Source: Thermodesulfobacteriota bacterium (lineage in GTDB: Bacteria > Desulfobacterota > UBA8473). Taken from it: a DNA stretch of 64,000 nucleotides. Both the position numbers and the translations under genes were made by a program. Below are positions 52,771 to 60,251 of this stretch, piece after piece; positions within the stretch are counted from its first letter, which is position 1, and every line of letters begins with the position of its first letter. The notes below the pieces were generated by a model. It did not search any database. It saw nothing but the letters and a program-made list of their open reading frames with translations, and was not told the origin of the DNA. The DNA is taken from assembly GCA_040757775.1 (NCBI GenBank), contig JBFLWQ010000006.1, positions 62,001 through 126,000 on the forward strand. The letters are read 5' to 3'.

Positions 52771-54288
52771 TCATTTCTCGATACCATATTTTTTCATCCA
52801 GTTGCTAACAGTCTGGTAGTTTGATAACCCTACCAATTTGGCGATCTTTGTCTTGTTCCCCTTGCTCTCAGTAACCGCTCTTTTCAGATAATGACGCGCC
52901 ACATCTGAAAGCACGTCAGGCAAGCTGAAACCATTGCCCATACTGCGATTGAGGGTCTTCTCTTGGTCTTTCTGGGAAGTGCTCACGGGGAACAACGCCT
53001 CCCTAATATCGCCAATTTCTATCGTCTCATCCGCGATCAGGATAGCAGCCCGCGAAAGCGTATTGTAGAGCTCCCGAACATTACCAGGCCAAGGGTGCTG
53101 GTGCATAAGATTTCTTGCGCCGGCAGAAAGTTTCTTATGCTTCCAACCGGATACGTCCTCGAACTTCTTATTTATGCTGTCAAGGATATGATCGATCACC
53201 GGGTTAATATCTCCGTGACGGTCTCTGAGCGATGGCAGGTTCAACATACCAACGGCTATACGATGAAACAGGTCATCCCTGAATCTCCCCGCTGCGACAT
53301 CCTCGATAAGATTGCGATTGGTTGCAGCGATGATCCTAACATTAATTGATTCTGCCTTGCTGGAGCCGACCTTAGTGATCATGCCCCCCTGAATGGCGCG
53401 CAGAAGCTTTACCTGTGCAGGAAGGGGCAGCTCTCCGATTTCATCAAGGAAAAGGGTCCCGCCATCAGCACTTGAGAAATATCCCTCCTTGTCGGCTATA
53501 GCACCCGTGAATGCTCCTTTCTTGTACCCGAAGAACTCTGACTCCACCAGATCGGGCGGTATCGAGCCGCAGTTGACTGCGACAAAGGGCTTATCTTTTC
53601 TTGGGCTTGTTGTATGAATAGCACGAGCGAAAAGCTCCTTGCCAGTGCCGGTCTCTCCCTGTATAAGGACAGGAACATCATGAACTGCGAGCCTTCGCGC
53701 CTGCGCAATGACTCTCTTCATCTCCTTACAACGGTGAATGATAGCACCGAACTCAGGAGACTCAGGAGGTAGCCCCTGGGTGAGCCTCAGTATTTCATCG
53801 TCAGCAGGTTTCAGGATGTCGGGTATATAATCAGCCGATATTTCAAAAGGAAAAGATACGGTCTTTAATCCTTTATCCTGAGACGACTCGATTAGTTCAG
53901 CGGGATGCGAGGTCTTTGATAGAAGTATCCAGACAGCAGCCATAGCCGGAGTGCCAGGGCTTAGGTGATAGGTTGAGTGTAGTTCCTTCAACCCAAGCTT
54001 TTTTATTACATCATTTATAGCGTTGGTCGCTGCCCCATAAATCTCTTTGAAGTCTGTCGGGCTGGTTAATTCAACATGATATTTAAGAATCATGGCCGCC
54101 GTGTTTCCCTTGAGCCAGTCGATGAAATGCTTTTCTTCCTCTTCCTTGTAGTTTGAAATTAGGATGACATGAGAAAAAGTGCGTTTGCTAACGGCCTGAC
54201 CAATTGGCCCAACGCCATTTTCCAGTTCCCCCTGTGAGGCTCTCAGGTCGGTTTTTCCTATCCAGGCAAACAGGACTTTATTAACCAT
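52771..54288 (-). CDS. RtcR-like CARF-domain sigma-54-dependent activator
   Basis: 505 residues from the ATG at 54288 (an ATG three codons upstream is less likely; see promoter). Residues 1-160 resemble the CARF domain of RtcR: VELTSPTDFKEIYGA, then LSPGTPAMAAVWILLSKT (ligand-loop GT motif) and AELIESSQ. The AAA+ domain has Walker A GETGTGKE (about 211-218), the sigma-54-contacting GAFTGA (about 258-263), Walker B TLFLDE and a C-terminal Fis-type helix-turn-helix. No rtcA/rtcB genes are here; instead hsdR follows behind a sigma-54 promoter. CARF domains bind nucleotide or RNA-end ligands; which one is unknown here. Confidence 0.88.
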   Translation of the reverse strand: MVNKVLFAWIGKTDLRASQGELENGVGPIGQAVSKRTFSHVILISNYKEEEEKHFIDWLKGNTAAMILKYHVELTSPTDFKEIYGAATNAINDVIKKLGLKELHSTYHLSPGTPAMAAVWILLSKTSHPAELIESSQDKGLKTVSFPFEISADYIPDILKPADDEILRLTQGLPPESPEFGAIIHRCKEMKRVIAQARRLAVHDVPVLIQGETGTGKELFARAIHTTSPRKDKPFVAVNCGSIPPDLVESEFFGYKKGAFTGAIADKEGYFSSADGGTLFLDEIGELPLPAQVKLLRAIQGGMITKVGSSKAESINVRIIAATNRNLIEDVAAGRFRDDLFHRIAVGMLNLPSLRDRHGDINPVIDHILDSINKKFEDVSGWKHKKLSAGARNLMHQHPWPGNVRELYNTLSRAAILIADETIEIGDIREALFPVSTSQKDQEKTLNRSMGNGFSLPDVLSDVARHYLKRAVTESKGNKTKIAKLVGLSNYQTVSNWMKKYGIEK

Positions 54289-54323
54289 AGTAAACATTAT
54301 ACAAAATATTTCATAAGTCGCAA
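54289..54323 (-). promoter_or_regulatory. sigma-70 promoter giving a leaderless activator mRNA
   Basis: On minus: TTGCGA (54323-54318), 16-base spacer, TATAAT (54301-54296). The ATG of the activator begins 7 bases after the -10, where transcription should start, and no ribosome site exists. The mRNA would thus be leaderless. Confidence 0.6.
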
Positions 54324-54559
54324 GATATTTTATTTCTTATTACTTTAGAAGGTGATATAGTATAAAGAATATATACTGTGAGACCTTTGGAAAACTATTT
54401 TTCTTTTGAATTGCCCACCCCCTACATAAAAAGGATTTACAAAAAGAAAAAAGGGATTATATTAAAAAGAAAGACTAAAAGACGATAGTCTTATAGAGAA
54501 AACAATTAACCGAATTAGCTAAGGTGGTTAATGGGGTTAAACATAGGGAGGTACTAAGG
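54324..54559. other. AT-rich intergenic region ahead of the IscU-like gene
   Basis: It holds a 19-base dyad (AGTATA-7-TATACT, 54359-54377) and A-rich tracts. The promoter of the iron-sulfur genes should be here, perhaps with a -10 near TATATT (54459). No gene seen. Confidence 0.4.
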
Positions 54560-55072
54560 ATGTATTCAGAGGTAGTAATGGACCATTTTAAGAACCCCCG
54601 CAATGTCGGGGAGATGAAAGATGCGGATGGGGTAGGAGAGGTTGGCAATCCTGTATGTGGTGACATGATGAACATATACATCAAGGTTAAGGATGACCGC
54701 ATTGAAGACATAAAGTTTTTGACATTTGGTTGTGGGGCAGCCATTGCTGTTTCCAGCATGCTCACAGAAATGGCAAAGGGTAAAACCATAGAAGATGCCA
54801 AGAAGATCACCAATAAATCGGTAGCTGAGGCACTTGAAGGTTTACCCAAGAACAAGCTTCATTGTTCCAACCTGGGAGCAGATGCCCTTCAGCTGGCAAT
54901 AAAGGACTATGAAGACAGAAAGGCAGGCAGGGTTAGGACTCCTTCAAAGGCAGAAGACAAACATGAACATACCAAAGGAGACACCTGTAGGTGTCCTTAC
55001 TGTGATACCGACTTAGATGCCGGGATAGAGTTCTGTTCAAACTGTGGCAAGGCAATAAACAACAGTCACTGA
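54560..55072 (+). CDS. IscU/NifU-type iron-sulfur scaffold with C-terminal zinc ribbon
   Basis: Start at MYSEVV (54560) behind GGGAGGTACTAAGG. 170 residues: IscU-like scaffold with the three cluster cysteines in NPVCGDMM, FGCGAAIA and KLHCSNLG, then from about 145 an added Cys4 ribbon (CPYCDTDLD and CSNCGKAI). The ribbon is not part of ordinary IscU. It precedes the desulfurase-like gene by 22 bases. Confidence 0.9.
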   Translation: MYSEVVMDHFKNPRNVGEMKDADGVGEVGNPVCGDMMNIYIKVKDDRIEDIKFLTFGCGAAIAVSSMLTEMAKGKTIEDAKKITNKSVAEALEGLPKNKLHCSNLGADALQLAIKDYEDRKAGRVRTPSKAEDKHEHTKGDTCRCPYCDTDLDAGIEFCSNCGKAINNSH

Positions 55073-55094
55073 ATCCTGGCAAGGAGACTTTAAA

Positions 55095-56270
55095 ATGAAT
55101 ACGATAAATTTAGATTACATATCGGCAAATCCCCTCTTACCCGAGGTTCAGGATGCCATGATTGACGCCATCAAGAAAAACTATGGTAATCCTTCAAGCT
55201 CACACCAACTGGGTGACCAGGCAGCAGCGGTATTGGAGCAGGCAAGGGAAAAAGTAGCGCGATTGATAAACTGTGCCTCACCCCAGGAGTTGGTATTCAC
55301 CTCATCTGGCACTGAATCTATCAATCATGCTATAAAGGGGATAGCCTTAGCAAAAGCAGACAAGGGCAAACACATTATAACCTCTAACATTGAACACAAT
55401 GCCGTCCTGAAGTCCATCAAGAGGCTGTTAAAAATGGATTACAGGGTAACCTCAGTCTCTGTGGACGAATACGGATTGGTGAACCCTGATGATATTGCCA
55501 ATGCCATAACAGATAAAACCATCCTTGTCACGATCATGCATGGCAACAACGAGATAGGAACCATTCAGCCCATAAAGGAAATTGCCAGGATTACCCGTGG
55601 AAAGGACATCATTTTTCATAGTGATGCTGTTGCATCAGTGGGTGTCATGCCTGTTGATGTCCAGGATCTGGACGTGGATTTACTGAGCCTCTCCTCTAAT
55701 CAGTTTAATGGCCCATCAGGTGTGGGGGGTCTTTACATCCGTCGAGGAGTATCACCGTTGCCATTAGTTGATGGTGGAGCTCAGGAGGACGGAAGGCGGG
55801 CAGGCACAGAAAATCTCACCGGTATAATCGGAATGGGTGTAGCCGCTGATATTGCCTTTCGGGAGATGGAATCCAGGGTAGAACATACAAGGAAGTTGAA
55901 GGAAAGGCTAATAAGGGGGCTGAAGGAAAGCATTGAGGATATTATTATAAATGGGCATCCTGAATTTTCTCTGCCCAATCTGGTCTCTGTATCCATAAGG
56001 TATATTGAAGGGGAGAGCATAGTTCTCATGCTGGATGAGAAGAACATAGCTGTTTCTACCAGGTCGGCTTGTGCTTCCGGGGCACTTCGGGCTTCCCATG
56101 TACTTCTCTCCATTGGCAGAGAGTATGCCGATGCCCAGGGAACGCTGGTGATTAGTTTTGGCAGGAACACAAAAGAATCTGATATTGACCGATTCCTGGA
56201 GGTATTGAGAAAAGCCGTTGAGTTTCTGAGAAACATGTCTCCTCTCTATAAAAAGGCAAAGGTTATATAA
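55095..56270 (+). CDS. cysteine-desulfurase homologue lacking the PLP lysine
   Basis: 391 residues of the NifS/IscS fold, with the active-site cysteine in RSACASGALRASHVL and the His in SNIEHNAVL. In the cofactor segment, where IscS has SSHK-YGPKG, this protein reads SSNQFNGPSG: the PLP-binding lysine is Gln and the preceding His is Asn. The Gln in the usual HxDAAQ motif is Ala (HSDAVAS). It therefore probably cannot form the PLP aldimine. A. fulgidus IscS is reported to lack this lysine as well. It may act as a structural partner that supplies only the cysteine ligand to the IscU-like scaffold. Confidence 0.88.
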   Translation: MNTINLDYISANPLLPEVQDAMIDAIKKNYGNPSSSHQLGDQAAAVLEQAREKVARLINCASPQELVFTSSGTESINHAIKGIALAKADKGKHIITSNIEHNAVLKSIKRLLKMDYRVTSVSVDEYGLVNPDDIANAITDKTILVTIMHGNNEIGTIQPIKEIARITRGKDIIFHSDAVASVGVMPVDVQDLDVDLLSLSSNQFNGPSGVGGLYIRRGVSPLPLVDGGAQEDGRRAGTENLTGIIGMGVAADIAFREMESRVEHTRKLKERLIRGLKESIEDIIINGHPEFSLPNLVSVSIRYIEGESIVLMLDEKNIAVSTRSACASGALRASHVLLSIGREYADAQGTLVISFGRNTKESDIDRFLEVLRKAVEFLRNMSPLYKKAKVI

Positions 56271-56546: not shown

Positions 56547-56753
56547 ATGGGCAGCAAAGAAATACTTGAACAAGCAATGAAATTAAAGCCAGACGAAAGG
56601 TTTATGGTGGTCGAAGGGCTTATAAAGAGCCTCGATGAGCCGGATGCTTCACTAGACGCTATATGGGCTGAAGAAGCAGAAAAGAGGCTTAAAGCCTATC
56701 GTGCAGGTGCGCTGGAAGGAATTCCTATGGATGAAATATTCAAGGAAGAATAA
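56547..56753 (+). CDS. addiction-module antitoxin (RelB/StbD-like component)
   Basis: 68 residues with the pattern of the putative addiction module component family: EILEQAMKLKPDERFMVVEGL, LDAIWAEEAEKRL, GIPMDEIF. It overlaps the toxin by one base (TAATG). It should neutralise the RelE-like toxin and repress the pair. Confidence 0.88.
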   Translation: MGSKEILEQAMKLKPDERFMVVEGLIKSLDEPDASLDAIWAEEAEKRLKAYRAGALEGIPMDEIFKEE

Positions 56754-57049
56754 TGAAGGTCATTTTCTCGAAATACGCTAAGCAAGAACTTGATGATGCA
56801 ACTCACTATTATGAAGTTGAACAACCGGGGCTTGGTCGACGTTTCCGTGAAGAAATTGGAAAAGCTGCAAGGAGAATTTCAGAATATCCTGAAGCATGGT
56901 CAGTTGAAAGGAGCGATGTAAGGAAATGCATTCTCCATAAGTTTCCGTACAAGCTGCTCTATTCAATAGAGGAGGATCATATTTTCATAATTGCTGTAGC
57001 GCATCAGCATAGAAAGCCAGATTACTGGATTAGAAGAAAAGAAGCATAA
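56753..57049 (+). CDS. RelE/ParE-family toxin
   Basis: 98 residues with the RelE/ParE fold pattern: FSKYAKQELDDATHYYE, GLGRRFREEI, RKCILHKFPYKLLYSIE, AVAHQHRKPDYW. Whether it cuts mRNA or acts on gyrase is not clear from sequence. Confidence 0.9.
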   Translation: MKVIFSKYAKQELDDATHYYEVEQPGLGRRFREEIGKAARRISEYPEAWSVERSDVRKCILHKFPYKLLYSIEEDHIFIIAVAHQHRKPDYWIRRKEA

Positions 57050-57998: not shown

Positions 57999-60251
57999 CT
58001 AATCAAATCTTTCACCAGATTTCACCTCAACCGGTTTCAGTCTGGTTATAGCTTTAAGCATAAACAGGAGAAGTGCACCGGCACCAAGGATAATCAGCAG
58101 GTCTGGCAGTATCCTGATTTGTCCTAATAATTGAATGGTGTCCTGGAACCAAAATTCATCCGAACGGGCGTGCCAAAAACCGTATTTAATATTATCCAGA
58201 ACCTGAAGGATACCGATAGGCAATAAAGTTCCAATGAACATGATAAAAAGCCCGATATTCGTTCCCCAGAAAGATACCTTGAGTAACCGGTCATTCCACC
58301 CATTCTCTCTGACTAATCCTCGCATGGAAAATAACAGCAGACCTATTGCCAGAAGACCGTAAGTCCCGAACAACGCTGTGTGTCCATGATTAACGGTAAG
58401 ATAGGTGGCGTGTTCATAGTAATTCACTACAGGTGTAGTAATCGATAACCCCATGACTCCTGCCCCTATAAATTCCCAAACAACAGAGGACATCAGAAAC
58501 ATCAGTGGATACCGGTAAGGAAACCCGCTGCCTGCTTTGACAAGCGCTTTTTGTCCGTGCCATACCTCGGCAAGGAGGAGCAAAATCGGTACAGGTTCGA
58601 GCGCTGAGATGGTAGACCCCAAAGCCAACCAGAAGGAAGGCTCACCAAACCAGTAGTAATGATGCCCCACACCGATGATACCTGAGCCCAGGGCAAGGGA
58701 AACAGTAAAATAAACAGTGCGAAGTCCAGCCTTCAGATCGACCAGCCCCAGATTTACCATCACAAAAACGATTGCAGCAGCAGCAAAGAACTCAAAAGCC
58801 CCTTCAACCCACGTATGCACCACCCACCATCGCCAGAAATCCGCAATAGTCAGGTGGGACTGAGGGTTATAGAGGAGACCGAAAGAGAAAAAACCAACAA
58901 CCGCTATTCCGGAATATGCCAGGAAGTGGGGTAACCCCCATTTGTCCTGTCCGGAAGCAAAATGATCCTTCAATGCACGAACCACCAAAAAAAGCCATAA
59001 TATGAGCCCGACGAGCAGCAGAATCTGCCACAGACGACCCAGTTCCAGGTACTCCCAACCCTGATGCCCCAACCAGAACCACAACTTACCGATCAACCCT
59101 TTCAGACCCAGGACTTCACCGGTAAGGCTTCCCAGTGCAACAATTATCACTGCCACGAAGAGAATATCTACTAAAAAACCCTGTCCTGCTGGTTCCTCCC
59201 CTCCTACCCCTGGGGAAACAAACAGGGTCATGCCGATCCAGGAGGTGGCTATCCAGAACACGGCTAATTGAAGGTGCCATGTCTTGACCCAATTGTAAGA
59301 TATGAATTTTGCTACAAAATCAATCCCGAAAAAGGAATCAGGGTTCACCGTATAGTGGGCCATCAGTCCGCCTATGATAACCTGCAAGAAAAACAGTACA
59401 GCCACAACCAGGAAAAATTTGCCTGTTTTCTTCTGGCTGGAGGATATTTTCGCTGTAGCCAGTGCCAGGGCAGGTTCAGGTTTATACGGCAATGACCCTC
59501 GGTTGAACTCGTATTTATGAAAGAGAAAGACTATCAACCCAAGTATAATACCGAAGGACACCAGGGATATTGCAGACCATATCAGAGATTTTCCGGAGAC
59601 CAAATTTCCCACCTCCGGGTCGTGGGGCCAATTATTTGTATAGGTATGGCTGTCCCCGGGCCGAATGGTTCCGGCACACCATGCCGTCCAGAAAAAGAAG
59701 TCAGCAAGATTCTGGCGTTCCTGAGGGTCCTTGATAGTCCCGGCACGGATTGGCCCTCTTTTATTCCCTTCTGCGAAAAGGTTGTCGTAGAATTTACGGT
59801 TTTCACGGAGAGACGCCGTCTGGAGAGGCGTCAGGGTCAGGGTATCATTGGCTGAATCGTATCGGTTGGTCTTGATTTGACTGATAACAACCGCATCCAC
59901 TGCCCCTTTTGACTCTGTATTAAGGGACTTGTAAGAAATGCCATGTCTTTCCTGTGCCAGCTTTTCCCGCATATTCTGTCCCATATTATGCAGGGCTTGT
60001 GCAGTAAAATCTGGTCCCCTGTAAGTGCCGTGTCCCCATACACTCCCAATATCCATCAGGCCATATTTCTGCCAGACCTGTTGACCAGCCATGATTTGAG
60101 CTTTTTCGGTCAACAGTTCACCACTTTCCATGATAACCTTTTGCGGATATGGTGGCAGGTCTCTTTTGGTATAACAATATCCGATGAGGGCAACGACGAT
60201 AGTCCCAAAAATGGCTAGTAAAAAATAGGCTTTAAGTCTTGAACTGATCAT
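57999..60251 (-). CDS. norZ: quinol-dependent nitric oxide reductase (qNOR)
   Basis: 750 residues: a fused NorC-like N-terminal region without a heme c site plus a 12-14 helix NorB core. FeB ligands are present: His and Glu in VVHTWVEG, and His-His in GVGHHYYWFG; heme ligands lie in TVNHGHTALFG. The quinol-site region WHLQLAVFWIATSW is normal. It reduces NO to N2O in the inner membrane. It ends the run hcp-HD-ferredoxin-norZ. The intact ligands argue against a NO dismutase. Confidence 0.95.
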   Translation of the reverse strand: MISSRLKAYFLLAIFGTIVVALIGYCYTKRDLPPYPQKVIMESGELLTEKAQIMAGQQVWQKYGLMDIGSVWGHGTYRGPDFTAQALHNMGQNMREKLAQERHGISYKSLNTESKGAVDAVVISQIKTNRYDSANDTLTLTPLQTASLRENRKFYDNLFAEGNKRGPIRAGTIKDPQERQNLADFFFWTAWCAGTIRPGDSHTYTNNWPHDPEVGNLVSGKSLIWSAISLVSFGIILGLIVFLFHKYEFNRGSLPYKPEPALALATAKISSSQKKTGKFFLVVAVLFFLQVIIGGLMAHYTVNPDSFFGIDFVAKFISYNWVKTWHLQLAVFWIATSWIGMTLFVSPGVGGEEPAGQGFLVDILFVAVIIVALGSLTGEVLGLKGLIGKLWFWLGHQGWEYLELGRLWQILLLVGLILWLFLVVRALKDHFASGQDKWGLPHFLAYSGIAVVGFFSFGLLYNPQSHLTIADFWRWWVVHTWVEGAFEFFAAAAIVFVMVNLGLVDLKAGLRTVYFTVSLALGSGIIGVGHHYYWFGEPSFWLALGSTISALEPVPILLLLAEVWHGQKALVKAGSGFPYRYPLMFLMSSVVWEFIGAGVMGLSITTPVVNYYEHATYLTVNHGHTALFGTYGLLAIGLLLFSMRGLVRENGWNDRLLKVSFWGTNIGLFIMFIGTLLPIGILQVLDNIKYGFWHARSDEFWFQDTIQLLGQIRILPDLLIILGAGALLLFMLKAITRLKPVEVKSGERFD

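Follow-up and report, generated by a model that had tools for sequence, protein, structure and literature searches.

A lysine-less IscS homologue encoded beside IscU in a Thermodesulfobacteriota bacterium and its relatives in other bacteria

The window analysed here, a stretch of 64,000 nucleotides from the genome of a Thermodesulfobacteriota bacterium, encodes an IscS homologue in which the PLP lysine and three further active-site residues are replaced. The sulfur-accepting cysteine is retained, the gene adjoins that of an IscU-type scaffold, and its codons bear the mark of strong purifying selection. In textbook Fe-S assembly, sulfur is obtained from cysteine through a PLP-dependent desulfurase. 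The protein in the window very likely has no such activity, and we consider it fairly probable that this dead IscS docks IscU and presents its Cys326 to the cluster under assembly, the sulfur being supplied as sulfide. Lysine-less IscS as a kind is already known, from Archaeoglobus fulgidus. A broad bacterial clade of such proteins, the loss of a fourth residue, the altered IscU partners, and the division of tasks with an intact IscS linked to mnmA appear to be new in the searchable literature; no description of the bacterial clade was found in a search of a collection with few subscription journals.

Active-site residues of the IscS homologue

By fold and overall homology, the product of the open reading frame (Table 1) is an IscS/NifS homologue. 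Its AlphaFold2 model (pLDDT 89.3) matches E. coli IscS (1p3w, TM 0.91), human NFS1, and the A. fulgidus structure 4EB5 (TM 0.92, rmsd 2.1 Å). Its scores against the NCBIfam models for NifS (450) and IscS (370) lie below the respective cut-offs of 530.75 and 643.2. In the alignment with E. coli IscS, Lys206 is replaced by Q203 (codon CAG at 55701-55703) and His205 by N202, both within the motif SSNQFNGPSG; Gln183 is replaced by A180 within HSDAVAS, which stands in place of HxDAAQ; and Arg354 is replaced by V352. The residues T73, H101, N152, D177, S200, and C326 are kept and correspond to T76, H104, N155, D180, S203, and C328 of the E. coli enzyme. The first-pass annotation had pointed to the missing lysine, to the altered HxDAAQ motif, and to an intact sulfur-accepting cysteine loop, and the alignment agrees on all three. 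Its statement that three cofactor contacts are gone is right for K206, H205, and Q183, but the PLP-ring contacts His101 and Asp177 remain, and its list of losses omitted the fourth replacement, R354 to V352. Compared with E. coli IscS and NifS-type enzymes, the window protein thus shares the fold, the IscU partner, and the mobile Cys loop, but is devoid of the catalytic lysine, Gln183, His205, and Arg354.

Table 1. Features of the iscU-iscS locus, with positions in the window
Feature	Position	Strand	Basis or remark
Lysine-less IscS homologue (putative pseudo-desulfurase)	55095..56270	+	391 aa, ATG start
N202 and Q203, replacing His205 and the PLP lysine Lys206	55698..55703	+	alignment
A180, replacing Gln183 (hydrogen bond to the PLP phenolate oxygen)	55632..55634	+	alignment
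C326, equivalent of the sulfur-accepting Cys328	56070..56072	+	retained in 47/47 lysine-less sequences compared
V352, replacing the substrate-pocket Arg354	56148..56150	+	alignment
AAGGAG, ribosome-binding-like site of iscS	55081..55086	+	sequence; 8 nt upstream of ATG
iscU/nifU-type scaffold	54560..55072	+	NifU_clost TIGR03419, PF01592
Zinc-ribbon-like C-terminal tail of IscU (CRCPYC...CSNCG)	54986..55069	+	weak Zn_Ribbon_1 match

Mutants of E. coli IscS help to interpret these replacements. The K206A and Q183E variants are each inactive, and R354K stays active (PMC9978102). Given these mutants, the combined exchange of Lys for Gln and of Gln for Ala, together with a non-basic residue at the position of R354, makes the loss of desulfurase activity very likely. 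The K206A variant still holds some PLP (PMC9978102). Because lysine-less variants can hold the cofactor, bound PLP would not be decisive against a dead enzyme. Moreover, nearly all lysine-less relatives keep H104 and D180, so the PLP pocket has not been erased, and this conservation suggests that PLP or a similar molecule may still occupy it.

The closest precedent is the IscS-IscU system of A. fulgidus, known from PDB entries 4EB5, 4EB7, and 4HVK and from a D199K mutant (4R5F). In its IscS the lysine is replaced by Asp, and the protein is reported to be without desulfurase activity (cited in PMC7585200). Its cysteine is reported to ligate a [2Fe-2S] cluster on IscU (cited in PMC7585200 and PMC9769115), and PLP is drawn in the 4EB5 complex (PMC9769115). 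The three corresponding regions of the PDB chain read HIDATAS, SSNDIYGPKG, and AHGTLLLTLGR; hence the same four residues, Lys206, His205, Gln183, and Arg354, are replaced in both proteins, which share about 45% identity and the retained cysteine. The first-pass annotation had named this archaeal precedent for the missing lysine, and the match is stronger than it stated. The likeness extends to the locus, as the window iscS also adjoins iscU and the IscU has all cluster ligands. The two proteins differ in the substituting residues, which are Asp for Lys and Leu for Arg in the archaeon, but Gln and Val in the window protein. Another lysine-less homologue, IscS1 of Methanosarcina acetivorans, is encoded in an iscSU cluster, and a mode of action like that of the A. 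fulgidus protein has been proposed for it (PMC7585200). A Methanosarcina sequence found in our scans (locus L161, 1336-2550), which we infer to be the IscS1 counterpart, has Asp at H104 and His at Q183; with H104 lost and R354 kept, its pattern of losses differs from that of the window protein.

Could the gene simply be decaying or misread? The loss of catalytic residues, and nothing more, speaks for a pseudogene or a sequencing error. Against this stand the open frame, the invariant acceptor cysteine, and the NQF motif, which recurs in six other assemblies, three from the genus and three from the family, and thus is not a base-call error in the QF codon region, as the first-pass annotation had allowed for. 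In addition, dN/dS of the lysine-less iscS within the genus is 0.11-0.12, and that of the intact paralogue is higher, at 0.15-0.17 (both Nei-Gojobori), as is typical of strong purifying selection on the former. The shared motif and the dN/dS values led us to reject this explanation, whose probability is negligible.

The IscU partner and the genomic setting

The start codon assigned to iscU is the ATG at 54560, in a reading frame that is open from a GTG at 54524. The product scores 200.3 bits against NifU_clost TIGR03419 (cut-off 187.9) and 174 bits against PF01592, and the cluster ligands C37, D39, C63, H105, and C106 are all kept. It carries LPKNK where LPPVK is expected. The C-terminal tail matches Zn_Ribbon_1 weakly (23.4 bits, below the cut-off of 25), and its two CxxC pairs are conserved in the IscU of close relatives. 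The iscS gene starts 22 nt after the iscU stop codon, and the two genes look like one operon. This pairing is common: 40 of the 47 lysine-less genes with enough flanking sequence adjoin iscU on the same strand. An LPKNK-like motif was found in 28 of these 40 partners of lysine-less IscS versus 1 of the 51 that accompany an intact IscS, and at least two CxxC in the IscU tail in 21/40 versus 6/51, both comparisons being uncorrected for kinship.

Just downstream of iscS lies a toxin-antitoxin pair (56547-57049) with an Unstab_antitox antitoxin (PF09720, 58.2 bits) and a ParE-type toxin (PF05016, 48.2 bits). Upstream of iscU, a divergent sigma-54 activator gene (52771-54297, minus strand) is nearest to RtcR, with 344.6 bits below the cut-off of 650. 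Farther downstream, the minus strand encodes a membrane protein of 750 aa (57999-60251) that by eye resembles a quinol-type nitric oxide reductase.

In the host, whose genome measures 3.1 Mb and is rated 100% complete, there is also an intact IscS. This second copy, for which the first-pass annotation had proposed to look, is the only one of its kind in the genome, and its gene neighbours mnmA on contig C16. Contig C2 encodes a third desulfurase-like protein, which is more distant and has the lysine. In the host and in the six genus and family relatives examined, the intact gene adjoins mnmA and not iscU, an arrangement that fits a division of labour between the two IscS forms. Searches yielded no match to SufB (PF01458) in the host genome or in seven other genomes of its family, and none to HscB (PF07743) or the A-type carrier (PF01521) in the complete-rated host genome. 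The host also has dsrAB followed by dsrD, with dsrC nearby. The dsrD gene is a marker of the reductive Dsr pathway, and this gene set fits reductive sulfide production, in line with the sulfidogenic lifestyle on which the first-pass annotation had built its proposal. A second IscU-like NifU_N scaffold with all ligands kept (locus L041, 1465-3298) is encoded on contig C15 in a separate operon, which also holds an FeS_assembly_P protein and a ferredoxin-fused P-loop ATPase.

In its gene content, the host resembles the minimal ISC system (MIS) named in PMC12192291, as it has IscS and IscU, and HscB, the A-type carrier, and SUF were not found in its genome. The MIS is described with a cysteine desulfurase, however, whereas the IscS component encoded in the window, to judge from the alignment, lacks the catalytic residues. 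Fe-S assembly fed by sulfide has been described for the SMS system (SmsCB) of Methanocaldococcus jannaschii, which has no dedicated desulfurase (PMC12192291). Its scaffold is of the SufBC type and unrelated to the IscU of the window, and the host genome has no SufB match. In E. coli without iscS, H2S rescues growth, but an iscU mutant is not rescued (PMC13015791), so that sulfide is able to supply IscU in living cells.

Conservation, distribution, and phylogeny of lysine-less IscS

Lysine-less and intact proteins were compared column by column in a redundancy-reduced alignment (404 columns) of 47 and 72 sequences, respectively, which came from scans of related genomes and of named genome contigs. 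In only seven columns does conservation reach 85% or more among the intact sequences without exceeding 35% among the lysine-less ones. Four of these seven are Q183, H205, K206, and R354, each more than 98% conserved among the 72 intact sequences. C328 and D180 are retained in all 47 lysine-less sequences and H104 in 46. According to this pattern, the losses concentrate in the cofactor and substrate chemistry and leave the acceptor cysteine untouched.

Lysine-less IscS was detected in 34 of 99 genomes of the same phylum, with ten unclassifiable genomes counted as being without it, and, outside this phylum, in no fewer than six bacterial groups. Within the Thermodesulfobacteriota the carriers include Deltaproteobacteria, Syntrophobacterales, and Smithella; beyond them are Dehalococcoidia, Nitrospirae/Thermodesulfovibrionia, Planctomycetota, Omnitrophota, Aminicenantes, Saganbacteria, and one bathyarchaeote. 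Nearly all classified genomes with the lysine-less form also hold an intact IscS. In one draft genome (G016, 85% complete, 40 contigs), the lysine-less protein is the only IscS-type match and SufB was not found, although a draft of this completeness could miss a gene. SufB is rarer in genomes with lysine-less IscS (7/34 versus 32/65, Fisher p 0.009), and dsrA is somewhat commoner (23/34 versus 28/65, Fisher p 0.033), again without correction for kinship. An above-cutoff dsrA was not found in 11 of the 34, several of them near-complete; sulfidogenesis therefore is no requirement for carrying the gene. A strict tie between the two was rejected for this reason and because the association is weak.

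Several variants were seen in passing. Asp-type lysine-less IscS proteins like that of A. fulgidus occur in bacterial genomes at L232 (2324-4350) and L233 (3486-5494), with Glu in place of R354 and an IscU open frame of 266-271 aa, the extra part of which has no Pfam match in L232. In L234 (4719-5225) and L236 (3228-3632), a gene for an IscR-like regulator lies between the lysine-less iscS and iscU. In two more genomes of the same phylum (L312 and L267), Asn takes the place of the lysine and Thr that of R354.

In a phylogenetic tree built with the trait columns removed, 43 bacterial lysine-less sequences and one intact sequence group together (SH-aLRT 99 for the 44), and the bacterial lysine-less clade has weak support when this lone intact sequence (L102) is left out of account. 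A. fulgidus IscS clusters in the free tree apart from this clade, with archaeal sequences and two bacterial Asp-type sequences. A single clade that includes A. fulgidus but not the Methanosarcina sequence was not rejected by the AU test (p-AU 0.62), and the free tree, a quick one, requires three changes for the loss of the lysine. Tests of co-loss by independent pairs had no power, with only two to three pairs.

Possible function and source of sulfur

The interpretation that we favour is that a catalytically dead IscS has been retained as a component of the machinery that assembles clusters on IscU. With the Schiff-base lysine, Gln183, His205, and the substrate arginine replaced, it would no longer desulfurate cysteine, but it probably keeps the IscS dimer fold and docks IscU. 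As the A. fulgidus complex 4EB5 suggests, the protein may also bring its Cys326 loop to the IscU site, where the cysteine would ligate the cluster or act as a gate. Sulfur would most likely enter as inorganic sulfide from the cell's Dsr pathway, and iron and sulfide would assemble on IscU, from which the cluster is then released. The intact IscS encoded elsewhere probably serves MnmA in tRNA thiolation. That sulfide is the actual sulfur donor to this IscU, as the first-pass annotation had suggested and as has been proposed for one archaeon, is plausible. Several observations weigh against this interpretation: the conserved H104 and D180 are not obviously needed by a purely structural platform, some carriers of lysine-less IscS have no above-cutoff dsrA, and with the scaffold on contig C15 the iscU-iscS pair is not the sole one of the host.

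The main rival to sulfide is persulfide supplied in trans: it would be made by the intact IscS of contig C16 and passed on, directly or via a small carrier, to Cys326, or else straight to IscU. The presence of an intact copy in nearly all classified genomes with the lysine-less form would allow such a relay, and an invariant Cys326 is what one expects of a persulfide acceptor. However, in the host and its six close relatives the intact gene lies next to mnmA instead of iscU, and the draft genome G016 yielded the lysine-less form as its only IscS-type match and no SufB; on balance a relay seems unlikely, though it is the strongest of the competitors. An association of the two IscS forms has also to be considered. 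Type I desulfurases are dimers, and with both forms in one genome the dead subunit might pair with the intact IscS and modulate it rather than serve IscU alone. The separate loci with different neighbours, and the fact that the lysine-less gene travels with iscU and not with the intact iscS, render this highly improbable.

Finally, PLP might be held non-covalently at His101 and Asp177 and support a slow desulfuration or another reaction of cysteine. The near-universal retention of H104 and D180, the residual PLP of E. coli K206A (PMC9978102), and the PLP drawn in 4EB5 (PMC9769115) would be in line with such chemistry. It is nevertheless improbable, considering that the E. coli enzyme is inactivated by K206A as well as by Q183E (PMC9978102), that A. 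fulgidus IscS is reported as inactive (cited in PMC7585200), and that the substrate arginine has been lost as well.

If the favoured interpretation of a dead, IscU-docking IscS is correct, automated pipelines that label lysine-less genes as cysteine desulfurases are likely wrong. As the substrate arginine and Gln183 have gone too, restoring the lysine alone is predicted not to revive the protein. It is quite possible, although we hold this wider claim only tentatively, that a sizeable set of anaerobic bacteria runs the ISC scaffold with a dead desulfurase on free sulfide and keeps the intact IscS for tRNA thiolation. A clade of this kind, often found in sulfide makers, would mean that ISC can do without the persulfide step and that IscS also fills a second role, a structural one. 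The old question of the sulfur donor of anaerobes becomes testable in bacteria, and ISC fed by sulfide, if true, would be a way of assembling Fe-S clusters that is widespread among bacteria and not the oddity of one archaeon.
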